NCBI RefSeq assembly: GCF_900182935.1
Contig: NZ_FXUE01000002.1
Span: 1-64,000 of the forward strand
Length of the DNA stretch: 64,000 nucleotides
Direction of reading: 5' to 3'
Source of the DNA: Fibrobacter sp. UWB10
GTDB taxonomy: Bacteria; Fibrobacterota; Fibrobacteria; Fibrobacterales; Fibrobacteraceae
How positions within the stretch are numbered: position 1 is the first letter of the stretch; each line of letters begins with the position of its first letter. The translations under genes and the position numbers were made by a program. This document shows positions 2,512 to 35,317 of this stretch, in pieces. The notes under the pieces were generated by a model that ran no database searches, was not told where the DNA came from, and worked only from the letters and a program-made list of their open reading frames with translations.

Positions 2512-4406
2512 ATATTGTGAATATGGATGCCCTTTCGGTTGCGAAGATGATTGTGCTTGGCGCGATTGGCGTGCTAGCATGGCAGACCTTTAACATTCAG
2601 GTGCTGAACCGCGAAGTGTACCAGGCTGAAACCAAGAGCATGGTCACGCGTACCAAGAGCATTTATGCCGAACGCGGCGAAATTTTGGACCGTAACGGCG
2701 TGGTGTTTGCCAAGAACTTGCGCGATACCGGCAAGGCCGAAGACTACACCCGAATTTTCTTGCAGGGTAAGCTTGCTTCGCAGATTGTGGGCAAGGTCGG
2801 TTACGACGGCGAAGGCAGCATGGGCATGGAACGCATGTACGACTTGCGCCTGCGCGGTAACGAAGGATTCCGTGTGGGTATCAAGGATGCCAAGGAACGC
2901 GAAATTCTGGGCCGTTCTGAAAATGTGGCCGAAGCAAAGCCGGGTAAGAACCTTGTGCTGACGATTGACCGCAATATGCAGGAAATCGTGGAAAAGGCGC
3001 TCAAGGACGGCGTGAACGAATTCAGTGCAGCGAGTGCATCGGCTGTGGTGGTGGACCCGTATACGGGTGAAATTTTGGCGATGGCTAGTTACCCGACCTT
3101 TGACCCGAACTCTAAAAAGCAGGGTGTGGGCAAGATGGCCAAAAACGATATTGTGGCCATGTCTTTTGAACCGGGTTCCACGTTCAAGGTGATTACGGCT
3201 GCCGCAGCTCTTGAAAACGGTTCTGTTCCTGAAGATACTGTTTTTGCTAACGAAGGCAAATGCTGGAGTTGGAGCGCACGTGCTGAACGTATTTGCGATA
3301 CGCACATTTATGGCGACATGGACATGGCCGAAGGCATGGTGCAGTCGTCGAACATTGTGTTTGCGAAGGTGGCTGACAAGGTGGGCGCCGAAAAGCTTTA
3401 CCGCATGGCCCGCAACTTTGGCTTTGGCATGAAAACGTCTGAAAACCTGGCGGGTGAAGAAGCTGGCCGCTTGTACATGCCGTATGAACTTACAAGAGAT
3501 GACCGTACCCTTAAAACGATGGGCTTTGGTCACGCAGTTTCTGTGACGCCGATTCAGATGGTGATGGCTTATGCCGCAATTGCAAACGGCGGCACTCTGA
3601 TGGAACCGATGATTGTGAAGGAATGGCGCGATTCCGACGGAAACTTGGTCGAAAAGAAGGAACCGGTAAAGGTACGTCGCGTAATTTCGGAACGTACGGC
3701 AGCTTCGATCCGCAAGATGCTGAATCGCGTGGTGAACAGCGGTACGGCAAAGCGTGTTGCTAGCAAGAAGATTCCGGATGTGATTTTTGGCGGCAAGACG
3801 GGTACGGCTGAAAAGTATAACCAGGAAACCGGCAAGTATGACCGCGAACACCAGGTGGCTTCGTTTATTGGTCTTGCTCCGGTTGAAGATGTGCGCTATG
3901 TGTGCATGGTGCTGGTGGACGATCCGAACGCTGACAAACTTTACGGCCACACGGGTGGTGCTACGGCGGGCCCGATTTTCCGCCGCATTATGGAAGGCAT
4001 TTATTACCACCCGAAGCTTTCGCCGGCATCGCATGACCTTGCCTTTGTGAAGGGTAAGTCGCCCTGCGAAGGCGATTATGTGGGCATGCTTGCTCAGACG
4101 GCAAAGTCGGTGGCCGCAAACAAAAAGTGCCCGGTGATTTTTGAAGGCGAAGGTTCTCGCGTGCTTGCGGTGCGCAGGGACTTGACCGATTCGATTGCAC
4201 TTGTGCTCAAGCTAGGCGATGTCGATGCTTCGACCATGCCCGACTTGAAAGGACTTACGTTGAAAGATGCTCTTGAAATTGCCGGAAACATTCGCATAAA
4301 TGTGGAATATACCGGAATGGGCCGCGTTGTGTCCCAGACGCCGAAAGTCGGGGAAACGCTCCATAAAGGGCAAATTTGCAAGCTTACGCTTAAGGAGAGA
4401 GGCTAA
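2508..4406 (+). CDS. ftsI: Septal penicillin-binding protein FtsI (PBP3) with C-terminal PASTA domain
   Basis: 632 aa. This is the transpeptidase that crosslinks septal peptidoglycan. One N-terminal membrane helix (about 13-30) is followed by the class B dimerisation region (RGEILDRNG at 56-64) and the transpeptidase domain. Catalytic motifs: STFK (nucleophile Ser224), SSN at 280-282 and KTGT at 430-433. Residues of about 570-632 form a PASTA-like repeat (MPDLKGLTLKDAL ... SQTPKVGETLHKG), a feature of Gram-positive PBP2x and some spirochaete-like lineages and absent from E. coli FtsI. It overlaps ftsL by four bases and murE by one. Confidence 0.95.
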   Translation: MNIVNMDALSVAKMIVLGAIGVLAWQTFNIQVLNREVYQAETKSMVTRTKSIYAERGEILDRNGVVFAKNLRDTGKAEDYTRIFLQGKLASQIVGKVGYDGEGSMGMERMYDLRLRGNEGFRVGIKDAKEREILGRSENVAEAKPGKNLVLTIDRNMQEIVEKALKDGVNEFSAASASAVVVDPYTGEILAMASYPTFDPNSKKQGVGKMAKNDIVAMSFEPGSTFKVITAAAALENGSVPEDTVFANEGKCWSWSARAERICDTHIYGDMDMAEGMVQSSNIVFAKVADKVGAEKLYRMARNFGFGMKTSENLAGEEAGRLYMPYELTRDDRTLKTMGFGHAVSVTPIQMVMAYAAIANGGTLMEPMIVKEWRDSDGNLVEKKEPVKVRRVISERTAASIRKMLNRVVNSGTAKRVASKKIPDVIFGGKTGTAEKYNQETGKYDREHQVASFIGLAPVEDVRYVCMVLVDDPNADKLYGHTGGATAGPIFRRIMEGIYYHPKLSPASHDLAFVKGKSPCEGDYVGMLAQTAKSVAANKKCPVIFEGEGSRVLAVRRDLTDSIALVLKLGDVDASTMPDLKGLTLKDALEIAGNIRINVEYTGMGRVVSQTPKVGETLHKGQICKLTLKERG

Positions 4407-5833
4407 TGATTTCTGAAACGTTGATGCAGAAATTGAATGTGCAGGGCCTGTGCGACGACTCCCGCCGCGTAAAGGCAAAAGATTTATTCTTTTCGATGCC
4501 GGGTGACAAGTCCGACGAATTTGCGAGAAACGCCGTGGCATCGGGTGCAGTCGCCGTAGTGAGCGAAAATGTTGCTCCCGAAGGACTGACATCTAAGTGG
4601 ATACAAGTTGCCGACGTGAAGGCTGCACGCCTTGAAGCGGCGAAGATTTTCTATAAGGACCCGTTTGCAAAGCTTAACGCTCATGCTGTAACGGGTACGA
4701 ATGGTAAGACAACAAGTGCGTTCCTGATGGATGCAATGCTTTCGGCTGCTGGCCACAAGGTTGCTCTCCTTGGAACCATTAAAAATAAAATTGGCGAAAC
4801 TTCGGTGCCCGCTACACTAACGACGCCGGGGCTATTGGATCTGTATGCCTTTGCCGCAAAAGCAGTCGAGGCTGGTTGTACGGACTTGGTGATGGAAGCG
4901 TCTTCGCATTCCTTGGACCAGGGCCGTATGGCAGGTGTGCTTTACAAGAGTGCCTTGTTCAGCAACCTGACTCAAGACCACCTCGATTACCATAAGACGA
5001 TGGATGCCTACTTTGAGGCAAAGAAGCTTTTGTTTACGCGTTACCTTGCTGATGATGGTGTTGCCGTTATCAATATTGACGATGCGTACGGAAAGAAACT
5101 ATACGATTCCCTAGCCGGGATAGAAGCGGACCGGAGGGTGGCTGTCTCGCGTCTAGGGGTCGTTGGTGCTTTAGTGAAGCCCGAAGGTGCCGTGAAGAAT
5201 ACCGAAGACGGTCTCAAGTTGTTGTTGCCTGCCATTAGCGCAGAACCGTTTGAAACTCCGTTGTGCGGCGACTTTAACGTAGACAACGTGATGCTGGTAC
5301 TTGCTTGGGCAAAGGCAATCGGCCTTGCCGAATCTGCCATGCGCAAGGCTTTGGCAGAAGTCCGCGTTCCGGGCCGCTTTGAAAAGGTCTGGAACAAGAA
5401 TGGCCGCCACGTGATTGTGGACTATGCTCACACGCCTGACGCCCTTGAACGCGTCCTTACGACCGCTCGTAGCCTCTGCCGAGGCCGCCTCGCGTGCGTG
5501 TTCGGCTGCGGCGGTGACCGCGACAAGACCAAGCGCCCGATTATGGGTGCAATCGCCGAACGCATTGCGGACAAGGCCTGGCTCACCTCAGACAATCCGC
5601 GTACCGAAAATCCGACTGACATCATTAATGACGTGCGAGCTGGCATGAAGACGGACAAATTTAGTGTCGTCGAAAAGCGTGATGAAGCGATTGCCAAGGC
5701 TTGCGCAGAACTTAAGGACGGCGACTGGCTCGTGATTGCGGGCAAGGGCCACGAAGACTACCAGATTGTGGGTAAGACCAAGCATCATTTTGATGACCGC
5801 GAAGAAGCGGTGAAGGCAATGGAAAATGTATAA
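4406..5833 (+). CDS. murE: UDP-MurNAc-tripeptide synthetase MurE
   Basis: 475 aa. This Mur ligase adds the third stem residue to UDP-MurNAc-L-Ala-D-Glu using ATP. The P-loop TGTNGKTT is at 96-103 and the central motif EASSHSLDQGR at 164-174. The specificity motif DNPR (396-399, within DNPRTENP) is the signature for meso-diaminopimelate rather than lysine, so the peptidoglycan is predicted to be mDAP type. The start codon overlaps the ftsI stop (TAATG), preceded by AGGAGAGAGG. The end overlaps murF by eight bases. Confidence 0.95.
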   Translation: MISETLMQKLNVQGLCDDSRRVKAKDLFFSMPGDKSDEFARNAVASGAVAVVSENVAPEGLTSKWIQVADVKAARLEAAKIFYKDPFAKLNAHAVTGTNGKTTSAFLMDAMLSAAGHKVALLGTIKNKIGETSVPATLTTPGLLDLYAFAAKAVEAGCTDLVMEASSHSLDQGRMAGVLYKSALFSNLTQDHLDYHKTMDAYFEAKKLLFTRYLADDGVAVINIDDAYGKKLYDSLAGIEADRRVAVSRLGVVGALVKPEGAVKNTEDGLKLLLPAISAEPFETPLCGDFNVDNVMLVLAWAKAIGLAESAMRKALAEVRVPGRFEKVWNKNGRHVIVDYAHTPDALERVLTTARSLCRGRLACVFGCGGDRDKTKRPIMGAIAERIADKAWLTSDNPRTENPTDIINDVRAGMKTDKFSVVEKRDEAIAKACAELKDGDWLVIAGKGHEDYQIVGKTKHHFDDREEAVKAMENV

Positions 5834-7208
5834 ACTGGATTTGAAAATCAAGGAACTCTTGGAAATCCTCGAAACCTACTCCGTAGGCGTTGATGGCCGT
5901 ACCAAGAACCGAAAGGTGAATCTTTGCATGGATTCCCGCGAACCCGCCAAAGGTGTTGTGTTTTGGCCGATCAAGGGCGCCCGTTTTGACGCCCACCAGT
6001 TTGTAGCACAAATGGAAAAAAATGGAGCATTGATGAGTGTCGTGAACGCTGATGCCGAAGGCATTGAAAACTTCAAGATGTATGCGCCCGTCGACGATAC
6101 GACGAAAGCGCTCCTCAAGCTCGCCAAGGGCTACCAGAAGAATTTCAAGGTAAAGAAGGTTGCCATTACGGGCAGCAACGGCAAGACAACCACCAAGGAA
6201 ATGGTGAAGGCCGTTCTTTCGCAGAAGTACAATACGCACGCCACCGCTGGTAACTTCAATAACCACATTGGTGTGCCCATGACGTTGTTCCAGCTCAAGC
6301 ACAGCCACGAAGCGGCCGTGATTGAAATGGGTACAAGTGGCCCGGATGAAATCCGCCCGCTTTCTATGGCGGTGGAACCCGATGTGGCCGTGATTACCAA
6401 TATTGGCGCTTCTCACTTGGAACGCCTTAAGGATTTGGACGGCGTGTTTGCCGAAAAGAAGACGATTGTCGCTGGCCTCAAGAAGAATGGCGTGCTCATT
6501 GTGAATGCAGACGATCCGCGTCTTTGCAAGTGCCGTAGCAATACCAGCTACAAGGTGATTACCTTCGGCGTGAAGCGCGGCATCATCAAGCCTGAAAAGC
6601 TCGAATGGAGCGAAGACAACTGCGCCACCTTCTTTGTGGACCGCACCAAGTTTACGCTGAACGTGCCGGGCATTCATAACCTGTATAACGCTCTCGCCGC
6701 TATTGCCGTGGGCCAGCAGTTCAGAGTTCCGAAGGCTGAAATCGCAAAGGCTCTCGCAAACTTCCGTTCGACCAACATGCGCATGGAAATCAAGAATGCG
6801 AATGGCTTCAAGATTGTGTCGGACTGCTACAATGCAAACCCGTCTTCGACCAAGATGGCTTTGCAGACCATTGGCAACATGAAGGTGAACCGCCGCATTG
6901 CCATTTTGGGCGATATGCTGGAACTTGGCGCTCAGACCGACGCCCTGCATTTGGAAATGGGCGCCATGGTGCCTGAAATGAATTTTGACATGCTCCTGAC
7001 TGTGGGCGAAAAGGCAAAGCTTTATGTGAAGGGCGCAAAGTCCAAGGGCATGAAGGCTGCTCACCACTTTGCATCTGTTCAGGAACTGATTGACACCCTC
7101 ACCGAAATCGTGGCAGAAGGCGACGTGCTCTTGATTAAGGGTAGCCGCGGTATGCACATGGAACAGGTGGTCGATGCCATGCTTAAACTCACGAAGGTCA
7201 AAGCTTAA
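5826..7208 (+). CDS. murF: UDP-MurNAc-tripeptide-D-alanyl-D-alanine ligase MurF
   Basis: 460 aa. MurF adds D-Ala-D-Ala to the UDP-MurNAc-tripeptide, completing the soluble pentapeptide precursor. The ATP loop GSNGKTTTKEM starts at 116; GNFNNHIGVPMT and the DCYNANPSS motif typical of MurF follow. The frame starts inside the murE 3' end, consistent with translational coupling. The next gene is ftsW, not mraY as in most clusters. Confidence 0.95.
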   Translation: MYKLDLKIKELLEILETYSVGVDGRTKNRKVNLCMDSREPAKGVVFWPIKGARFDAHQFVAQMEKNGALMSVVNADAEGIENFKMYAPVDDTTKALLKLAKGYQKNFKVKKVAITGSNGKTTTKEMVKAVLSQKYNTHATAGNFNNHIGVPMTLFQLKHSHEAAVIEMGTSGPDEIRPLSMAVEPDVAVITNIGASHLERLKDLDGVFAEKKTIVAGLKKNGVLIVNADDPRLCKCRSNTSYKVITFGVKRGIIKPEKLEWSEDNCATFFVDRTKFTLNVPGIHNLYNALAAIAVGQQFRVPKAEIAKALANFRSTNMRMEIKNANGFKIVSDCYNANPSSTKMALQTIGNMKVNRRIAILGDMLELGAQTDALHLEMGAMVPEMNFDMLLTVGEKAKLYVKGAKSKGMKAAHHFASVQELIDTLTEIVAEGDVLLIKGSRGMHMEQVVDAMLKLTKVKA

Positions 7209-7226
7209 TTTAGGACTCACGAAGGA

Positions 7227-8402
7227 ATGGAAAACACAGTTGCAAATACCGGCATGAACAAGCTACTCTTGGTAGTAGTGTTGCTGCTGATTTGTTTGGG
7301 CGTGCCTATTGTCTATACGGCATCGGCCCATTTTGCTGTGTCCCATGGGCTCCCGGCAGAATACTACCTGCAAAAGCATTTGATGAAGGCTGTGCTTGGC
7401 TTGGTTTTGATGCTTGGTCTTGCTCGTTTCTTGGATTACGGTCATTGGATTTGGCTTGGACGCATTGCGTTCTTGGTGGGCGTGATTCTTACGATTGCAG
7501 CGCTTGTGTCGGGACACGGCGTCAAGGGTGCAAACCGCTGGATTATGGGTATTCAACCGTCTGAAATCATGAAACTTGGAATGCTCATTTGCATTTGCGG
7601 AAAGCTTTCTCAGGCGGGTGACAACATCAAGAGTGTTGCATGTACGCTTGTCCAGCCGGGAATCTTCTTTGGCATTACGGCGCTTTTGCTGATTTTGCAG
7701 CCGAACTACTCGATGCTTTTGATGCTTTCGGTGACGGTGATTTGCGTGTTGCTCACGGCAGGCGTGAATTACAAGTATTTGGCAATTACGATTGCCTCTG
7801 CGATTCCGCCGGGAATTATCATGTTGCTCAAAACTGGGCATTCCAGCAAGCGTCTCCAGGCGTTTACTGCTGCCGAAGGCGAAATGGTCGCTTCGAACTG
7901 GCAGGGTGAACATGCGTTGCTTGCTTTGGGTAACGGAGGGTTCTCTGGCACGGGATTCGGTCTTGGCGTGCAAAAATTGGGCTACTTGCCCGAAGTGCAC
8001 AAAGACGTGATTTATGCGGTGGCAGGCGAAGAATTTGGATTCATGGGAACGTTCTTCTTGCTTGCTTTGTATGCGCTTCTTTTTGCGCAGGGTTTCAAGA
8101 TTGCTCGTCAGTCTTCGACCCGTTTCGGAAAGTATTTGGCGGTGGCGCTTACGTTCTCGCTTTTCTTCAACTTTTTGGTTCACGTCTGCGTTTGCGTGGG
8201 ACTTTTCCCCACGACGGGCCAACCTCTCCCGTTCATAAGCTTCGGCGGAACCAATTTAATTTACAGCTGTGTGGCAGTGGGTATTCTTTTGAACATTTCT
8301 AGACCCAATACAGGCAAAATGATCAAGGAACCGTATATGAGCGGCGCCTCGCTCGAAAGCAGTGCCTACAGAAACTATGAATATTCAAGGAGTGGCGTAT
8401 GA
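7227..8402 (+). CDS. ftsW: Lipid II polymerase / division protein FtsW (SEDS family)
   Basis: 391 aa, about ten membrane segments. SEDS signatures are present: ALGNGGFSGTGFGLGVQK, YLPEVHKDVIYAVAGEE with the conserved Asp and Glu, and LPFISFGGTNLI near the C terminus. FtsW polymerises lipid II at the septum together with FtsI. AAGGA directly touches the annotated ATG; a second in-frame ATG nine codons later (MNKLLLV) could be the true start. It overlaps murG by four bases. RodA is the alternative SEDS member, but the cluster context favours FtsW. Confidence 0.92.
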   Translation: MENTVANTGMNKLLLVVVLLLICLGVPIVYTASAHFAVSHGLPAEYYLQKHLMKAVLGLVLMLGLARFLDYGHWIWLGRIAFLVGVILTIAALVSGHGVKGANRWIMGIQPSEIMKLGMLICICGKLSQAGDNIKSVACTLVQPGIFFGITALLLILQPNYSMLLMLSVTVICVLLTAGVNYKYLAITIASAIPPGIIMLLKTGHSSKRLQAFTAAEGEMVASNWQGEHALLALGNGGFSGTGFGLGVQKLGYLPEVHKDVIYAVAGEEFGFMGTFFLLALYALLFAQGFKIARQSSTRFGKYLAVALTFSLFFNFLVHVCVCVGLFPTTGQPLPFISFGGTNLIYSCVAVGILLNISRPNTGKMIKEPYMSGASLESSAYRNYEYSRSGV

Positions 8403-9469
8403 AAAAGTTCCTTTTCGTATGTGGCGGTACCGGTGGCCATATTTTCCCGGCCGTAGCCATTGCAAATAGTCTTAAGAAGATGGGCGTGACCGATATTACT
8501 TTTGCCGGCCGTAAAGATTCTATGGAAGAACGTTTGGTTGCAAAAGACTGGCCGTACGAATATATTTCTGCGGTTCCTCTGCATCGTGGTCCGTTCCTTA
8601 AGAACTTGGCGCTGCCCTTTAACCTTTCTAAGGCCCTTGTTCGTGCAAAGAGCGTGATTAAGAAAGTCAAGCCCGATGTCGTTGTGGCAACCGGTGGCTA
8701 TGTTTCGCTTCCGATTGTGCTTGCCGCAGGCACTGCCGGCATTCCGGTTTATCTGCAGGAACAGAATGCTGTGGCCGGCGTTGCCAATAAGGTGGGCGCC
8801 CGCTACGCAAAGACCGTGTTTGTAACCTCCGAAGAAGCTGCCAAGTTCTTCCCGGTAGAAAAGTGCATGATTTTTGGCAACCCGGTTCGTGAATTGCCGG
8901 TGGGTGATTCCTTGCCGCGTCCGGCTGAATTTGCTCCGGGCAAAAAGGCTGTGTTTATTGTCGGTGGCTCTCAGGGCGCTGTGGGTATCAACAACAAGAT
9001 TGAAGAAAGCATTCAGAAGATTGCCGCCCGCGACGATGTGTCTGTCGTTTGGCAGGTGGGCGTGAAGAATGTGGAAACGATTAGCTCTCGCGTGGGCGAA
9101 GTCAAGAATGTGGCGATTCGCGGTTTCTTGGATGGCATTTATTCTTACATGAAGCATGCCGACTTGATTATCAGCCGCGCCGGTGCTTCTGCCCTCGCTG
9201 AAATTTTGGCCTTCGGTAAGCCCTCGATTCTCTTGCCGTTCCCGCATGCTACTGCTAACCACCAGGAACACAATGCCCGCGTGGTGGAACATGCTGGTGC
9301 CGCCCTTGTGGAACTTGATGCCGAAGAAAATCACTTGTGGGAAAAGGTGGAACAGCTCTTGGCTGATGAACCCCGCCTGAATTCGATGGCTCTTGCTGCC
9401 AAAAAGCTTGGAATGCCCGATGCAGCCGACCAGATTGCTCGTGTTATCCTGTCTAAGGAGAATGATTAA
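8399..9469 (+). CDS. murG: UDP-GlcNAc:lipid I N-acetylglucosaminyltransferase MurG
   Basis: 356 aa, the usual MurG length. It transfers GlcNAc to lipid I, giving lipid II on the inner face of the membrane. The N-terminal glycine-rich loop GGTGGH is at 9-14, followed by ATGGYVSLPIVLA and QEQNAVAGVANK. The C-terminal donor-binding region includes GGSQGAVGIN and SRAGASALAEILAFGKPSIL. AGGAG precedes the ATG, and the start overlaps the ftsW stop (ATGA). Confidence 0.95.
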   Translation: MKKFLFVCGGTGGHIFPAVAIANSLKKMGVTDITFAGRKDSMEERLVAKDWPYEYISAVPLHRGPFLKNLALPFNLSKALVRAKSVIKKVKPDVVVATGGYVSLPIVLAAGTAGIPVYLQEQNAVAGVANKVGARYAKTVFVTSEEAAKFFPVEKCMIFGNPVRELPVGDSLPRPAEFAPGKKAVFIVGGSQGAVGINNKIEESIQKIAARDDVSVVWQVGVKNVETISSRVGEVKNVAIRGFLDGIYSYMKHADLIISRAGASALAEILAFGKPSILLPFPHATANHQEHNARVVEHAGAALVELDAEENHLWEKVEQLLADEPRLNSMALAAKKLGMPDAADQIARVILSKEND

Positions 9470-10851
9470 TGCAGATTAATGATTGTAAGCGTGTCCGTAA
9501 GCTTCATTTTGTAGGTATCGGTGGCGCCGGAATGTCCGGCATTGCTGAAGTGCTCCACGATAACGGTTTCGTTGTGAGCGGCTCTGATACCGGTGAAAGC
9601 CAGGTGATTGATTACCTGAAGGGCCTTGGCATTAAGGTGTTTTCGAAGCACGAAGCATCGAATGTCGAAGATACGGACTTGGTGGTTTATTCTTCTGCAG
9701 TTCCGCACGACAATCCTGAACTTGTTGAAGCCCGCAACCGCCGTATTCCGGTGATTCGCCGCGCCGAAATGCTTGGCGAACTCATGCGTATGAAGTACAC
9801 ACTTTCGATCGCTGGTACTCACGGCAAGACGACCACGACTTCTATCGTGGGCCAGATTTGGGAAGAAGCTGGCCTTGACCCGACCATTATCGTGGGCGGT
9901 GTCGTTAAGGGTAAAGGCTCGGGCGCTAAGGTCGGTAAGGGTGACTACCTGATTGCCGAAAGTGATGAATTTGACCGCAGCTTCCTTTCGATGATGCCGT
10001 CTTCTGCAATCATCACCAACATTGACGCTGACCACTTGGATACTTACGAAAACATCGAAGACATCAAGGATGCCTTCGTGCAGTTTGCCAACAAGATTCC
10101 GTTCTACGGCCAGGTGATTGTTTGCCTCGACGATCCGAACGTGCAGCAGATTCTTGCTCGCTTGAAGAAGCCGGTGATTACTTACGGCTTTACTCGTCAG
10201 GCTAAGTACCGCGTGGATAACCTGCGTTTTGAAAAGGGCTATCCGATCTTTGAAATTTTGAACGATGGCGAAAGCTTGGGCGAATTTAAGCTCCAGATTC
10301 CGGGCCGTCACAACGTGCTGAATGCAACTGCCGCTGTTGCGCTCGCGATTGAAGAAGGCATCTCTGCCGATATCGCACGCAAGGCCTGCGCCGAATTCGA
10401 AGGCGTCAAGCGTCGCTTCGAATTCATCGGCGAAAAGAATGACGTCCTGGTCTTTGATGACTACGCTCACCATCCGACTGAAGCGACTGCCACCTTGCTT
10501 GGCTTCCGCGACGCCTTCCCGGATCGCCGTATTGTCGTGGCCTTCCAGCCGCACCTGTTTACGCGTACCCGCGACCAGCACGATGCCTTTGGCGGTGCGT
10601 TTGCGAACTGCGATGTGCTCTTGGTGACTGACATTTACGCTTCCCGTGAAAAGCCGATTGAAGGCGTGACGGGTGCGCTTGTGTCTAACAGCGCCTCTGA
10701 CCGCGGCCACCGTGATTCCCGCTTTGTGGGCGACCAGATGAACTTGCTGCCGATTCTCAAGAAGGAATTGCAGCCGGGCGATGTGGTGGTGCTCATGGGC
10801 GCCGGAAACATCTGGAAGCTGGGCGAAAGAATTTTGAAGGAATGCCTGTAA
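9469..10851 (+). CDS. murC: UDP-N-acetylmuramate-L-alanine ligase MurC
   Basis: 460 aa. MurC adds L-Ala to UDP-MurNAc, the first stem-peptide step. GIGGAGMSGIAEVL (16-29) is the N-terminal UDP-binding loop, GTHGKTTT (116-123) the ATP loop, and DDYAHHPTEATATL the central-domain motif. The ATG overlaps the murG stop (TAATG) and AAGGAG lies just upstream. A 25-base gap precedes ftsQ. Confidence 0.95.
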   Translation: MQINDCKRVRKLHFVGIGGAGMSGIAEVLHDNGFVVSGSDTGESQVIDYLKGLGIKVFSKHEASNVEDTDLVVYSSAVPHDNPELVEARNRRIPVIRRAEMLGELMRMKYTLSIAGTHGKTTTTSIVGQIWEEAGLDPTIIVGGVVKGKGSGAKVGKGDYLIAESDEFDRSFLSMMPSSAIITNIDADHLDTYENIEDIKDAFVQFANKIPFYGQVIVCLDDPNVQQILARLKKPVITYGFTRQAKYRVDNLRFEKGYPIFEILNDGESLGEFKLQIPGRHNVLNATAAVALAIEEGISADIARKACAEFEGVKRRFEFIGEKNDVLVFDDYAHHPTEATATLLGFRDAFPDRRIVVAFQPHLFTRTRDQHDAFGGAFANCDVLLVTDIYASREKPIEGVTGALVSNSASDRGHRDSRFVGDQMNLLPILKKELQPGDVVVLMGAGNIWKLGERILKECL

Positions 10852-10876
10852 GGTTGAAAGAATTAAGGAATTAGAA

Positions 10877-11719
10877 TTGACTGGAACTAAAACGACATTC
10901 TTGGGACGCCGCATAGGCACCAATGAACGATTGCGCAAACAGGAGCGCGTCCGCAAATTAAAGAGCGGCGTGTCTTCGGTATGGCATTGGTTCAAGCGTC
11001 GTGGCTGGATTTTCACCATTATCCTGGTGGTTCTTGCCGTTCTCGCCATTCACAATCGTTTTTACTTGCAGCATTTCAACCCGCTGGAACTGCGCCACTT
11101 GCAGTATGTGGAAATCGAAGGCAACCGCATGCTTTCTTGGGAAGACGTAATGCAGGGTGCCCAGGTCGAAACGGGAATGCTTATGTCGGAATTGAACGCC
11201 GATTCTGTCGAAGCGTCTCTCATGCAACTTCCGATGATTTTGTCGGCGAAGGTCGAAAAGAAATTCCCGTCGTCGCTGTACATCAAGCTGCACGAAACGT
11301 CGCCGGTGCTTACGGTGCTTTCGGAAGGTCGCGCAACGATTTATTCCGAAAAGGGCTATCCGCTTCCGTTCTCGGTGGCAACGGCAATGAGGCTCCCGGT
11401 AATGGATGTAACGGCAATGGAACATGTGAAATCGGTAACTCAGTTCTTGGTTGAAATGCGTAGTTACGATGCTGAACTTTATAATCGTGTGTCGCAGGTG
11501 AGCTGGTCTTCTGCAGACGATTGCATGAAGGTCTATTTCAGAGATGTCGGCTTTACCGCTCTCTTTAAGGACTTGAAATCGAACAAGGATCAGTTTACGC
11601 TGTATAAGTCGCTTGAAAACGGGTTTGCAAAGGATTTGCTTTGCGCAGGTGAAGTCGATATGCGCTATTCGGGCTTTGCCTATGTAAGAAATTATGATAA
11701 GAGGTGCGTCAATGGATGA
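10877..11719 (+). CDS. ftsQ: Cell division protein FtsQ
   Basis: 280 aa. A basic cytoplasmic tail is followed by one membrane helix (about 43-60) and a POTRA-like segment (LRHLQYVEIEGNRMLSWEDV, from about 72), then a weakly conserved beta domain. FtsQ links early and late division proteins through FtsL/FtsB. The start is a TTG with AAGGA seven bases upstream; no better ATG is available. Position between murC and ftsA supports the call. The 3' end overlaps ftsA by eight bases if ftsA starts at 11712. Confidence 0.85.
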   Translation: MTGTKTTFLGRRIGTNERLRKQERVRKLKSGVSSVWHWFKRRGWIFTIILVVLAVLAIHNRFYLQHFNPLELRHLQYVEIEGNRMLSWEDVMQGAQVETGMLMSELNADSVEASLMQLPMILSAKVEKKFPSSLYIKLHETSPVLTVLSEGRATIYSEKGYPLPFSVATAMRLPVMDVTAMEHVKSVTQFLVEMRSYDAELYNRVSQVSWSSADDCMKVYFRDVGFTALFKDLKSNKDQFTLYKSLENGFAKDLLCAGEVDMRYSGFAYVRNYDKRCVNG

Positions 11720-12953
11720 CAATAAACAGGACAAAAGAAAAGACGAATACATCTTTGGCCTTGACATTGGTGAATCGAAGATAAACCTGTTCGTGGGTGT
11801 TTCCGAAGGCGAAAACGTTCGCGTTGTGGAATGCGGCGATTTCCCGCTCAAGAACGCAGACGAGTTCGATTCTGTAGTGGAAACATTGCAGCAGGCTGTC
11901 CAAGTCATTGAAAATACGACTCGCGTCGATGTGCACGATGTCTACGTGGGCATTGCTGGCAAGCATGTGCGTTCCTTGGTGACTCAGGGAATCGTGACGC
12001 TCCCCATGGGCGAAGTTCGTGAAGAAGACATTGACAACGTGACAAAGCAGGCGAGCACCTTGCCTGCCTCTGCCGGCGAAATCATCCATATCTTCCCGGG
12101 CGAATACAACCTGGACGACGAACCGCATATCCGCAATCCGAAGGGCCGCTCGGGCCGTCGCTTGGGCGTCGATGTCCAAGTGGTCGCTGTAAAGCCGACC
12201 GCCTTGCAGAACTTGGCCAAGTGCGTGAACCGCGCAGGCCTGAATGTGGCTGGCTTTGTGCTTGAACCTTTGGCGGCTGCAAGTGCAGTGCTCACCAACG
12301 ACGAACGTGAACTCGGTGTCGCTCTGGTAGACATTGGCGCAGGTTCTGCAGACATTGCCGTGTTCGTGAACGAATCCGTTCGCTTCACCTTCTCTTACGA
12401 ATATGCCGGCAACTCGATCACAAGTGATATCAGCCGTTGCTTGAACGTGCCTATCGCACTTTCCAAGGCCGAAGAAATCAAGAAGAAGTTCGGTACTTGC
12501 GTTATTAGCAACTTGATTGAAGACGAAACTTTCCCGGTGCCTGCTGTGGGCAACCGTGGCGATGTATCTTGCTCTCGCAAGCTCCTTGCCGAAATTATCA
12601 CAGCCCGTGTGGGTGAAATTTTCTCGATGCTCAACGAACAGCTTAAGGCACACCAGCTCGATACCATTATCAATGGCGGTATCGTTTTGACTGGGGGCTG
12701 TTGCGCACTGGATGGCATCGAAGATGTCGCCTGCAAGGTATTCGGAAAGCCTGTTCGTATTGGCCGCCCCAAGGGAATGAGCGGCATTCAGGAAGCCTAC
12801 CAAAATCCATCTTATGCAACGGGTATCGGCCTCCTTTACTATGCGAACAAGCAACACCGTGAAAAGAAAAATCGTGAAACCGGAACCCAAATTGCCGTTT
12901 CTATGAAGAAGGGCTTCCAGCGTTTCATCGAAATCATCAGGACTTATTTATAA
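11712..12953 (+). CDS. ftsA: Cell division protein FtsA
   Basis: 413 aa, an actin-like ATPase that tethers FtsZ to the membrane. The phosphate-1 motif FGLDIGESKINLFVG begins at residue 15; GVALVDIGAGSADIAVF is phosphate 2 and INGGIVLTGGCCAL the adenosine region. The last 15 residues (KKGFQRFIEIIRTYL) form a typical amphipathic membrane-targeting helix. An in-frame ATG at 11694 lies six codons upstream, but AAGAGG is spaced for the 11712 start, which I prefer. Confidence 0.93.
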   Translation: MDDNKQDKRKDEYIFGLDIGESKINLFVGVSEGENVRVVECGDFPLKNADEFDSVVETLQQAVQVIENTTRVDVHDVYVGIAGKHVRSLVTQGIVTLPMGEVREEDIDNVTKQASTLPASAGEIIHIFPGEYNLDDEPHIRNPKGRSGRRLGVDVQVVAVKPTALQNLAKCVNRAGLNVAGFVLEPLAAASAVLTNDERELGVALVDIGAGSADIAVFVNESVRFTFSYEYAGNSITSDISRCLNVPIALSKAEEIKKKFGTCVISNLIEDETFPVPAVGNRGDVSCSRKLLAEIITARVGEIFSMLNEQLKAHQLDTIINGGIVLTGGCCALDGIEDVACKVFGKPVRIGRPKGMSGIQEAYQNPSYATGIGLLYYANKQHREKKNRETGTQIAVSMKKGFQRFIEIIRTYL

Positions 12954-12989
12954 CAAACACCAACACTCAACATCAGGGAGATAAAACAC

Positions 12990-14621
12990 ATGAGTGAAAT
13001 CGATAACTTCAACTTCGAGGTAAAGTCTCGCGTAATGGGCGAGGAACCATCTTTCAACAACGCCAAGGTCAAGGTGTTCGGCGTCGGCGGTGCCGGCGGC
13101 AATACCGTGAACCGCATGAAGCGTATGAACATTGATGGTGTCGAATACTATTCCATCAATACCGACGCAATGGCTCTTGACTTGAGCCTTGCCGACCACA
13201 AGATTCTGATTGGCGAAAAGACCACCAGAAACTTGGGCGCCGGTATGGACCCCGAAATCGGCCGTAAGGCTGCAGAAGAAAACTTGGACGATATCAAGGA
13301 CGCCATGAAGGGCGCAGACATGGTATTCGTGACTGCCGGTATGGGCGGTGGTACGGGTACGGGTGCCGCTCCGGTGGTGGCAAACATTGCCCGCGAACTC
13401 GGTATCCTCACGGTTGCTGTGGTCACCAAGCCGTTCCGCTTCGAAGGTAACGCTCGTTCATCCATCGCACAGGAAGGTATCAACGCCCTCCGTGCTGCTG
13501 TCGACACTATCATCGTTGTCGAAAACAAGAAGCTTTTGACCCTCCTCCAGGCCTCCAACCAAAAGGCCACTATGGATGAAGCCTTCAAAATGGCTGACGA
13601 AATCCTCGGTAACGCAGTGCAGAGCATTTGCGGCATCATGTTCCGTCACGGCCTTGTGCACGTTGACTTTGCTGATATCCGTAAGGTCATGCTTAAGGGT
13701 GGCTCGGCTCTCATGGGTACGGGTTACGCTCAGGGCGAAAACCGCGGTATCATGGCTGCCGATATGGCTCTTGCCTCTCCGCTTCTCGAAGACATCAACA
13801 TCGAAGGCGCTTCGGGCGTGCTCGTGAACGTTGCCCACGGCGAAAACTACTCCTTGCTCGAACATAGCGATGCTATGGATCACATCTACGAAAAGGTTGG
13901 CGAAGAAGGTAACCCGAACATCATCATCGGCGATATCACTGACCCGGCTCTCGGCGACAAGGTTTGCATCACTATCATTGCTACTGGTTGCGGTGGCACG
14001 GCTGTGAATCAGCCCAAGCCCAGCACCGCTGGCTTCGGTTTCGGTAACTTCACTGTTCCGCAGCAGACCGCTCCGGCTTCTGCTCCGGTTCAGCAGGCTC
14101 CTGCCGCTCCGGCTGGCATCCAGCAGGCAACTCCGCGTCCGACCGGTTTTAACGTGTTCGATTTCCAGACTGTCAAGACCGACTCTCAGGAAATGTTTAA
14201 TCGTCCGCAGTACACTCCGGCCCAGCAGGCTCCTGAAGCAATGACTTCTTCTATCCCGTCTCTGACTGAAACGTCTGTGATGCGTTCTGTGAATGCCGCT
14301 ATGTTCAGCTCTCCGGAATTCAACGCAACGGCTCCGGCCGAAGAAGAAGTGGTGTCTCAGGGCTCCGAAACTTCTGAAATGTCTGCTGTTGCTGAAGAAG
14401 ATCGCATGAACGGCGGAGTTCCCGCTTACGAATCGCAGTCTGCTCAGTACGATATGCCTGCTTACGCTCGCAACGCTGCCAATGGTGCTACCGTGACTAT
14501 GGAACGCCCGGCTGCAACGCGTCAGCAAGAAGTTGAACCTGAACCGGTTGCTGCTCCGTCTGCAATTGACTTCAGCCTTCCTGCTTACCTGCGTAACAGA
14601 ATGAACACAAACAACTTCTAA
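12990..14621 (+). CDS. ftsZ: Cell division protein FtsZ
   Basis: 543 aa, longer than the usual 350-400. FtsZ is the tubulin-like GTPase that forms the division ring. GVGGAGGNTVNRM begins at 31 and the tubulin signature GGGTGTGAA is at 119-127. The folded core ends near residue 345. About 180 residues of Gln/Pro/Ala/Ser-rich linker follow, and the last residues contain IDFSLPAYLRNRM, a match to the C-terminal peptide that binds FtsA. AGGGAGA precedes the ATG. A gap of 36 bases separates it from ftsA, and terminator hairpins follow. Confidence 0.96.
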   Translation: MSEIDNFNFEVKSRVMGEEPSFNNAKVKVFGVGGAGGNTVNRMKRMNIDGVEYYSINTDAMALDLSLADHKILIGEKTTRNLGAGMDPEIGRKAAEENLDDIKDAMKGADMVFVTAGMGGGTGTGAAPVVANIARELGILTVAVVTKPFRFEGNARSSIAQEGINALRAAVDTIIVVENKKLLTLLQASNQKATMDEAFKMADEILGNAVQSICGIMFRHGLVHVDFADIRKVMLKGGSALMGTGYAQGENRGIMAADMALASPLLEDINIEGASGVLVNVAHGENYSLLEHSDAMDHIYEKVGEEGNPNIIIGDITDPALGDKVCITIIATGCGGTAVNQPKPSTAGFGFGNFTVPQQTAPASAPVQQAPAAPAGIQQATPRPTGFNVFDFQTVKTDSQEMFNRPQYTPAQQAPEAMTSSIPSLTETSVMRSVNAAMFSSPEFNATAPAEEEVVSQGSETSEMSAVAEEDRMNGGVPAYESQSAQYDMPAYARNAANGATVTMERPAATRQQEVEPEPVAAPSAIDFSLPAYLRNRMNTNNF

Positions 14622-33601: not shown

Positions 33602-35317
33602 TTATTTTTCGAAATGGAATACATGGCGGTTGTAGTTCGAAGTTAGCAGGTATTGCTTTTCGCGCTGCACCGTCATAAACATATTCACGAAATACATTCG
33701 AAGGCCTGTTACGGATTGTTCGAGATCCGTGAGGTTCATAATTTTTCCATCGTCCTTGATGACGATAAAGAAGTCGTCTTTTTTCATTTTGATGGAAACT
33801 TCCAAGAAAACCTTTTTTCCTTTGTTGCTTTCGAAAATGGTCATTCCAAGTTCTTCGATAAGCAGCATGGCCTTGAGCTTGCTTTTGTTGCTTACGGAAC
33901 GGTGGTCCAAGAGCTTGCCAAAGTTGTCAAGGTAGTGAATCAGGTTCTTGGGGGTAAGGTCGATATCGTGTGTGTACCAGTAGTTTTCTTTGGAGAAATG
34001 CTCTAGGAGCAGCGGGAAGTGTTCCTTGCCGTAGAAAAGTAATTGGCAAGTAGCTCCTGCGCCGAGTGCTAAAAAGGGAGCGATTCCAAAGCCTAACCAT
34101 ACATATTCATGCCCGGTAAAGGTGTTCATGGCAATGACGCTAATCAAGGGGCATGCGAATGAAACAAGGAAAATGAACAGGAATGAAAGAAAGGGCTTTT
34201 CGTGAACGTGGAATGCCGCGTAGATTTTGACTATTGCGAGAGGCAAAATTCCGATGCCGCAGGCACGGATAGCGAATGCGGCTTCGATAGCGGTTTCTTC
34301 GGATTCAAAACTGAAAATTTTCGTGAGTAAAGGTGCGAAAAAGAGAAGGAATGACGTGGTAAGCAGACTCAGCTTGAAAATAGTCCAATTGACAAAGCGC
34401 ATGGTCTGTACGATGCCTTTGTTGTTTTCTTCGCCGCGGTAAATGTTGATGAGCGGCTCGGCGGCCATCCAGACGCCATTGAATATGACGCTCAATTCAA
34501 TGATTTCGTATACGATAGAAAGAATGGAGAACTTGGTGCTGCCAATGTGGCTTGCAAAATACAAGTTCATCACGCCGGCAAATAAGGCGAAGAATAAAAA
34601 TTCGCAAGCTTCGGCCATGCTAAAGCGAATGACCGAGGCGATGTCGCGCATGTTAAAATGCCAAATGAATCGTAGCGAATTATGCTTTCTTGCAAAGTGC
34701 GTACTGAGAACAGATGTACTGAGAATGACTGAAATGACGGTGCCGAGCGCGATGCCGGACATTCCCCAATAATGACAGCATATACAAGATAAAATGACGT
34801 TCCCTAATAGCAGTGCCGCGTACGAAGCGTTGCATGTTTTGGTGTCGCCGTCCACATACACCATTTCTTGTAGGGTGTTGTTGAGCGGAATCAAGAAGGC
34901 GAGCCCCAAGAACCATCCGTAAAATTCATTCACGAACTGCATTTGCTCGGGTTCGACATTCATGTAGCTAAACAGGAAATGCTTGCCTATGGCAAAAGCG
35001 ACGACCATTAAAATGCCGATACCAACCGAAAGAATAATGCTCTGCCCAAAGAATCGGTCCGCCTTATTCTTGTTCATGCGCCCCAGTTCAATGGAGTAGC
35101 AAACGAGGCTTCCGACCATGACGATCGAACTGGCGAATAGAATGACCGAAAAGAGAGGCGTAAAGAACGAAATGGCGGCAAGCGCGTTTTCGCCCAGCAT
35201 TCGGGCGGCAACGATTTTATCGATAAAGATGTTTATGAATTCTGCACAAACAGAAAGCGATGCTGTTAGAAGCATGGACTTGAATCGTCTACCGCAAAAT
35301 GTCTGGTTAATGCGCAT
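33602..35317 (-). CDS. MATE-type transporter fused to a C-terminal GHKL ATPase-like domain
   Basis: 571 aa. Residues of about 1-430 hold 12 membrane segments with the MATE pattern (FINIFIDKIVAARMLGENAL; GMSGIALGTVISVILSTSVL), a Na+ or H+-driven exporter fold. Residues of about 440-571 are soluble and resemble an anti-sigma/GHKL-type HATPase: LKAMLLIEELGMTIFESNKG (about 480-500) corresponds to the N-box with conserved Glu, and VIKDDGKIMNLTDLEQS (about 519-535) to the G1 box, which keeps D-x-G-x in reduced form. ATP binding is therefore uncertain. Stops two bases from the GH16 stop (convergent). TTATATT lies nine bases upstream of the ATG. Confidence 0.7.
   Translation of the reverse strand: MRINQTFCGRRFKSMLLTASLSVCAEFINIFIDKIVAARMLGENALAAISFFTPLFSVILFASSIVMVGSLVCYSIELGRMNKNKADRFFGQSIILSVGIGILMVVAFAIGKHFLFSYMNVEPEQMQFVNEFYGWFLGLAFLIPLNNTLQEMVYVDGDTKTCNASYAALLLGNVILSCICCHYWGMSGIALGTVISVILSTSVLSTHFARKHNSLRFIWHFNMRDIASVIRFSMAEACEFLFFALFAGVMNLYFASHIGSTKFSILSIVYEIIELSVIFNGVWMAAEPLINIYRGEENNKGIVQTMRFVNWTIFKLSLLTTSFLLFFAPLLTKIFSFESEETAIEAAFAIRACGIGILPLAIVKIYAAFHVHEKPFLSFLFIFLVSFACPLISVIAMNTFTGHEYVWLGFGIAPFLALGAGATCQLLFYGKEHFPLLLEHFSKENYWYTHDIDLTPKNLIHYLDNFGKLLDHRSVSNKSKLKAMLLIEELGMTIFESNKGKKVFLEVSIKMKKDDFFIVIKDDGKIMNLTDLEQSVTGLRMYFVNMFMTVQREKQYLLTSNYNRHVFHFEK

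Follow-up and report, generated by a model that had tools for sequence, protein, structure and literature searches.

The locus

The window analysed in this study is a stretch of 64,000 nucleotides from Fibrobacter sp. UWB10, a member of a genus of rumen bacteria. Positions 33602-35317 hold an uninterrupted, ATG-started open reading frame on the minus strand, a detail that the original prediction had not given. The gene and its features are as follows.

33602..35317, minus strand: MATE-GHKL fusion gene, 571 aa, stop codon included (open reading frame and translation)
34028..35317, minus strand: MATE transporter core, residues 1-430 (Pfam MatE, model and fold search)
33608..33979, minus strand: predicted RsbW/SpoIIAB-like GHKL domain, residues 447-570 (secondary structure and fold search)
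33824..33865, minus strand: degenerate N-box LLIEELGMTIFESN, residues 485-498, with Glu489 kept and Thr493 at the Asn position (alignment with neighbouring kinases)
33734..33760, minus strand: G1-like IKDDGKIMN, residues 520-528, with Asp522 and Gly524 kept (alignments)
33626..33631, minus strand: Asn563-Arg564 (NR) motif, a clade marker (alignments)

The original prediction had described a MATE exporter with a twelve-helix core fused to a GHKL ATPase-like domain, and this description holds for both halves of the protein. The Pfam MatE model matches the 571-aa protein with 63.1 bits (E 3.3e-17), which exceeds its cut-off of 24.9, with the best stretch at residues 20-177; the NCBIfam MATE models also match, yet below their own cut-offs. 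A full-length AlphaFold2 model, built on an alignment of 28 full-length rows (mean pLDDT 86.1), contains 14 helical segments between residues 7 and 429, which we interpret as 12 transmembrane helices, including two broken ones. In a Foldseek comparison with MATE structures, this model matched 6fhz (E 3.6e-12, TM by target 0.76) as well as PfMATE. An acidic coupling residue in the first helix is a trait of MATE proteins, and we assume from the family that the present exporter is ion-coupled. The closest named relative in our genome scan is L033, which is 99% identical and lies on a contig titled Fibrobacter succinogenes. The gene is preceded by an RlmI-like gene 30 bp upstream and followed by a glycosidase-like gene in convergent orientation; we named these two neighbours by eye. 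An operon partner was sought among these neighbours and not found, and a promoter and terminator scan at the gene gave nothing above shuffled sequence.

Predicted fold of the tail

Behind the MATE core lies a soluble tail of about 125 residues. In both the full-length model and a tail-only AlphaFold2 model (27 tails, mean pLDDT 77.6), the tail consists of a strand, two helices, two strands, an ill-defined loop, a helix and two strands. The first rows of a Foldseek search of the tail model against the PDB were RsbW 6m37, UsfX 8ih8 and 8jzt, and SpoIIAB 1tid, 1th8, 1l0o and 1til, at E values of 1e-6 to 2e-5, with the response regulator LvrC (9qih) at rank 3. VIA-align superposed eight RsbW/UsfX/SpoIIAB entries on the tail over 112-128 residues at 2.1-2.7 A, with Z scores of 13.1 to 13.8 that were highest for RsbW 6m37 (13.8), UsfX 8ih8 (13.7) and SpoIIAB 1tid (13.5). 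Lower rows comprised the ninth entry of this group, 6m36 (12.6), SiaB (12.6, rmsd 5.6), Rv1364c (12.4) and LvrC (11.5), and histidine kinases reached a Z of 7.9 or less. Because the RsbW/SpoIIAB entries rank above the histidine kinases, the likeness to RsbW/SpoIIAB that had been proposed from the letters alone is the right comparison for the tail. A GHKL fold of the anti-sigma (RsbW/SpoIIAB) kind is well supported by these models, and the predicted structure speaks against a fold unrelated to GHKL ATPases.

The window tail alone has no Pfam GHKL match, HATPase_c_2 being absent at E values up to 10. POTRA_3 (0.058) and Csd3_N2 (0.098), which came up for the same tail in the Pfam and NCBIfam scans, were rejected, as neither was over its cut-off. 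A profile of 27 tails found no match among PDB sequences at E values up to 5, so the fold was used instead. Below threshold, HATPase_c_2 was seen in 6 of 27 relatives' tails (E up to 1, best 0.009). When the profile of tails was compared with the stand-alone RsbW-like protein of a related locus, L042, 94 columns were aligned with N-box on N-box and G1 on G1, at an E value of 8.4e-5 for a single comparison and a probability of only 60%. Given that the window tail has no Pfam GHKL match, the GHKL assignment relies on the predicted fold, on this profile comparison and on the HATPase_c_2 matches of relatives.

Distribution of the fusion

Of 167 Fibrobacterota genomes, 41 match the tail profile, and the match is strong in 38. 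Forty-nine of the 52 matches in these genomes lie below E 1e-30, all in frames of 570-613 aa, and the tail is therefore rejected as a separate short family, of which no example was found. The other three matches are weak in frames of 139 aa (G051) and 560 aa (G056) and partial in a frame of 181 aa (G067). The partial match, at G067:C17:256933-257151, may be the remnant of a fusion gene.

The fusion extends beyond the Fibrobacterota. In the family of G170 (a genome with a contig, L056, titled Lachnospiraceae), the profile matches 28 of 397 sampled genomes, and further full-length relatives lie on contigs titled Firmicutes, Mollicutes, Clostridium, Traorella, Solobacterium, Oscillospiraceae and Clostridia and on one Akkermansia MAG, where single contigs may be misbinned. 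Ten of the more distant fusions, hand-chosen out of 30 matches in the family of G170, were scanned with Pfam; MatE was over its cut-off in all ten and HATPase_c_2 in seven, with two below the cut-off and one without a match. Judged by their sequences, these distant fusions with clearer motifs connect the degenerate tail to the Pfam HATPase_c_2 family. As both parts of some members are within reach of Pfam models, this architecture is probably already present in domain databases. Two relatives differ in their layout: at L057 (6001-7701) the fusion is present as two open reading frames, a 452-aa MATE part and a 100-aa GHKL part, and at L149 (3607-5853) a 749-aa protein carries an extra N-terminal region, with its MATE core starting near residue 204.

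Degenerate motifs under purifying selection

The two motifs quoted in the original prediction are present at the N-box and G1 positions of the tail. We aligned 50 fusions, some of them near-identical (such as the window protein and L033), with 8 kinase domains from neighbouring genes. Thirty-six of the fusions carry the NR motif and constitute the window's clade. The N-box Asn, which has a role in Mg-ATP binding, is found in none of these 36 and in 8 of 8 kinase domains, its position being taken by T, S, V, L, H, A, F, E, K or M. In the same 36 fusions, the loop after the G1 glycine (Gly524 in the window) is 15 residues long, compared to 22-23 residues in the 8 kinase domains, and the glycine-rich G2 box (GGLG) is replaced in tails of this clade. 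The G-box had indeed been described as reduced. Other positions are mostly kept: 32 members have Glu at position 489 and 3 have Asp, 33 have Asp522, and all 36 have Gly524, so that the tail could still bind a nucleotide. Among the 14 fusions without the NR motif, 10 have the N-box Asn, and 5 of those 10 have the 15-residue loop. The short loop is therefore older than, or independent of, the loss of the Asn and is by itself no marker of lost activity. The motif changes point to a domain that has lost the usual mode of Mg-ATP handling in the window's clade. Of the options raised at the outset, ordinary nucleotide binding agrees less well with the absent N-box Asn and the short lid loop than a module that only binds protein.

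Purifying selection acts on the tail. In comparison with L034, the sole unsaturated orthologue pair, dN/dS is 0.044 for the tail and 0.085 for the core; saturation affects the pairs with L035 and L037 and, for the core, the pair with L038, where the tail gives 0.148. The alignments also show conserved EE, DxG and NR positions in the tail.

Linkage to SpoIIE and STAS genes

The genomes of relatives add an observation that lies beyond the view of a single stretch, namely the linkage of the fusion genes to genes for STAS proteins and SpoIIE phosphatases. Across the 38 Fibrobacter genomes with a strong tail match, at least 35 of 49 fusion genes have SpoIIE and/or STAS as a neighbour within 8 kb, comprising at least 6 of 18 of the window type and at least 29 of 31 of the other type. 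The corresponding count for ordinary MATE genes of the same genomes is 1 of 31 among the matches listed, where ordinary genes are frames under 530 aa and the 641-aa frame of G062 is left out. The Fisher value for this difference is 3e-10, which overstates independence as the genomes are related. Left out of the linkage count were the two SpoIIE rows with the weakest matches, SulP-like rows (with frames of about 300 aa or 460-650 aa) and STAS rows weaker than about 2e-11. The iterated neighbour profiles were seeded from these loci and may include fusion tails; Pfam scans of chosen neighbours, among them the GHKL protein of L042 and the SpoIIE-GHKL protein of L075, are an independent check.

All six linked window-type genes (L040-L044 and L075) have a STAS gene and a separate GHKL domain beside the fusion. 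The order is GHKL, STAS, fusion in L042 and L043 and SpoIIE-GHKL, STAS, fusion in L044 and L075. At contig edges, it is SpoIIE-GHKL, fusion, STAS in L041 and a 61-aa GHKL end fragment, fusion, STAS in L040. The separate domain has the N-box Asn in five of the six clusters, the sixth being the fragment of L040, and the STAS proteins of the clusters keep the SSAG serine motif. With a separate Asn-bearing GHKL domain at hand, the fusion is not needed as a kinase in the window-type clusters, which leads us to prefer the tail as a receiver. The paralogue operons (L072, L076 and L077) are arranged differently, as no GHKL gene other than the fusion was seen there beside STAS and SpoIIE. In these operons the fusion itself may be the kinase, or a kinase may act in trans.

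This arrangement is the reason to consider the tail as an unusual but active serine kinase, in which case the fusion would phosphorylate the STAS protein and the MATE core, as transporter or sensor, would control the kinase. The mostly kept Glu489, at the catalytic position, and G1 Asp522 would fit such an activity, as would the N-box Asn of 10 of the 14 more distant fusions, but the same Asn is missing from 36 of 36 members of the window's clade, the G2 box is replaced, and the window-type clusters supply a kinase domain of their own. We regard an active kinase as unlikely. A tail that receives a STAS protein is the reading carried forward here.

For the window gene and 11 of the 17 further genes of its type, the matches listed place neither STAS nor SpoIIE within 8 kb, and some of the contigs end nearby. 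In a quick tree, the linked genes L040-L044 fall outside the F. succinogenes group of unlinked genes, with L075 (linked) and L074 (unlinked) beside that group. This position of the linked genes suggests that the window gene probably lost its linkage, with support of 91-94 at some forks and an uncertain place for L074 and L075. Separately, L074 (4713-7832) has an ordinary-length second MATE gene (461 aa) directly downstream of its window-type fusion.

The unlinked genes could also be taken to mean that the tail is an added structural module, serving for instance dimerisation or stability, and that in the window's lineage it currently has nothing to do with partner switching. The strong purifying selection on the tail, its conserved EE, DxG and NR positions and the linkage of sister genes all speak against this explanation, and we hold it to be very improbable. 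Under the receiver reading, the partners of the unlinked window gene would be encoded elsewhere in the genome.

A paralogue operon and a candidate partner in the same genome

The genome of the window encodes two SpoIIE genes, one of which directly adjoins a paralogue of the window gene that is 29% identical over nearly its full length. This paralogue is part of the gene run of L072 (G000:C2:164000-180000, about 5647-13403), which consists of STAS, an aminotransferase-like gene, an AMP-binding/PCP/condensation NRPS, MATE-GHKL and a 7TM-SpoIIE phosphatase. The NRPS is one module of adenylation, PCP and condensation domains; the aminotransferase-like label comes from a weak PDB match (0.0026) with no Pfam match, and the 7TM model of the phosphatase is below its cut-off. 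AMP-binding open reading frames also occur beside fusions in L045-L049, L053, L054, L062, L063, L076, L077 and L078. At the level of gene content, this AMP-binding/NRPS company hints at a secreted product under signal control.

On contig C7 (about G000:C7:35.9-38.6 kb; L073, G000:C7:32000-44000, 3854-6649), a gene for a Cache-HAMP-SpoIIE-GHKL protein is followed by a STAS gene. The locus thereby holds sensor, phosphatase, kinase and antagonist in two genes. The Cache-HAMP-SpoIIE-GHKL protein matches HATPase_c_2 above the cut-off, as no other protein of the genome does. The 98-aa STAS protein of C7 shares 67-78% identity with the STAS proteins of five window-type clusters, compared to 40-42% with those of three paralogue operons. 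The C7 SpoIIE-GHKL and STAS pair is the natural candidate for a partner of the window gene in trans. Similar SpoIIE and STAS pairs occur in genomes without a window-type fusion (G098 and G101), so such pairs must have other targets as well.

In the family of G170, 10 of 20 regions have a SpoIIE or STAS open reading frame besides the fusion, one of which (L156) is a weak partial match; the 20 regions were hand-chosen out of 30 matches, and the control count of ordinary MATE genes covers the Fibrobacter genomes. SpoIIE or STAS is directly adjacent to the fusion in L142, L151, L158 and L160 (Pfam-checked). Among the non-Fibrobacter loci of the relatives scan, STAS and SpoIIE lie in the flanks of L061 only (1 of 10).

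Discussion

Partner switching is best known for freeing sigma factors. Our analysis suggests another output for this logic, and we give about even chances to the window gene encoding a MATE exporter with a probably non-catalytic, RsbW-like docking tail that is controlled by a STAS protein, itself set by a kinase and a phosphatase. In this model, a SpoIIE phosphatase and an intact GHKL kinase domain, either fused in one Cache-HAMP protein or separate, would set the phosphorylation of the STAS serine. The tail would serve as the docking site for this SpoIIAA/RsbV-like STAS protein, and docking of one of its phospho-forms on the exporter would switch transport on or off. In the case of the window gene, these roles would fall to the unlinked SpoIIE-GHKL and STAS pair of contig C7.

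Information could also flow in the opposite direction, from membrane to cytosol. The MATE core would then be a receptor-like transporter in which passage or occupancy of the substrate alters the tail, and the tail in turn retains or frees its ligand, be it a STAS protein, a sigma factor or the phosphatase. Sensing or signalling from the membrane had been suggested in the original prediction; known members of the RsbW kind bind both sigma factors and STAS proteins, and the gene linkage fits either direction. However, the linked phosphatases come with their own sensor-like regions, Cache-HAMP or 7TM, and this points to them as the place of input and to the transporter as the output. We consider the receptor-like alternative improbable and retain the exporter as the controlled component.

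With somewhat less than even confidence, we extend this proposal to the family as a secondary transporter family under direct partner-switch control. The GHKL half of the switch would have become a regulatory tail of a MATE protein and lost its kinase chemistry in one clade, with a phosphorylatable STAS protein gating small-molecule export in Fibrobacterota, Lachnospiraceae and some other gut bacteria. The linkage in only 1 of 10 non-Fibrobacter loci is what keeps our confidence in the family-wide reading at this level. In the paralogue operons, the small-molecule cargo would perhaps be the product of the adenylation-PCP-condensation NRPS. If the proposal is correct, a transporter with a switch domain in its own tail would constitute a post-translational output of partner-switching logic. 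The fusion loci also point to gut-bacterial clusters in which the export of NRPS-like products may be under signal control.

A literature search of titles and abstracts, with subscription papers and preprints outside its scope, returned no fusion of MATE with an RsbW or GHKL domain and no partner switching on a MATE protein; the fusion is new to print only as far as this search reached. Partner-switch proteins with targets other than sigma factors, SypE-SypA and others, have been published, according to excerpts of PMC4517449 and PMC12826045. In Vibrio fischeri, the PP2C and RsbW-like domains of SypE control the STAS protein SypA, and the target is apparently no sigma factor (PMC4517449, PMC12826045, in excerpt). 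The target of SypA is given there as unknown, whereas in MATE-GHKL the RsbW-like domain sits on a transporter. RsbW-like domains joined to other modules are also represented by TciR of Vogesella indigofera, a REC-RsbW fusion with apparently conserved kinase residues (PMC12826045, in excerpt), and by Rv1364c (PMC12143880, in excerpt). TciR resembles MATE-GHKL in carrying an RsbW-like domain on another module but, as far as the excerpt describes it, is a response regulator with no transporter.

The tail resembles RsbW/SpoIIAB (HATPase_c_2) in its predicted fold, in the N-box Glu and the G1 Asp and Gly positions, and in the STAS/SpoIIE company of its relatives. It differs in being attached to a 12-helix transporter, in the absent N-box Asn and short lid loop, and in the lack of a Pfam match for the window tail. 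Core sequence and fold resemble those of MATE exporters of the MOP superfamily (PfMATE 3vvn and 6fhz), but the extra cytosolic GHKL tail sets the protein apart from ordinary MATE proteins, which in the same genomes are mostly about 450-520 aa long among the matches listed. SLC26/SulP transporters carry a STAS domain in their cytosolic tail. These STAS-tailed transporters are mentioned in an excerpt of PMC4517449, and they resemble MATE-GHKL as transporters with one half of a STAS/GHKL-type pair in the cytosolic tail. The tail is the STAS half in SLC26/SulP and the GHKL half in MATE-GHKL, which, if our proposal holds, would make the fusion the mirror image of the SulP transporters with STAS tails.
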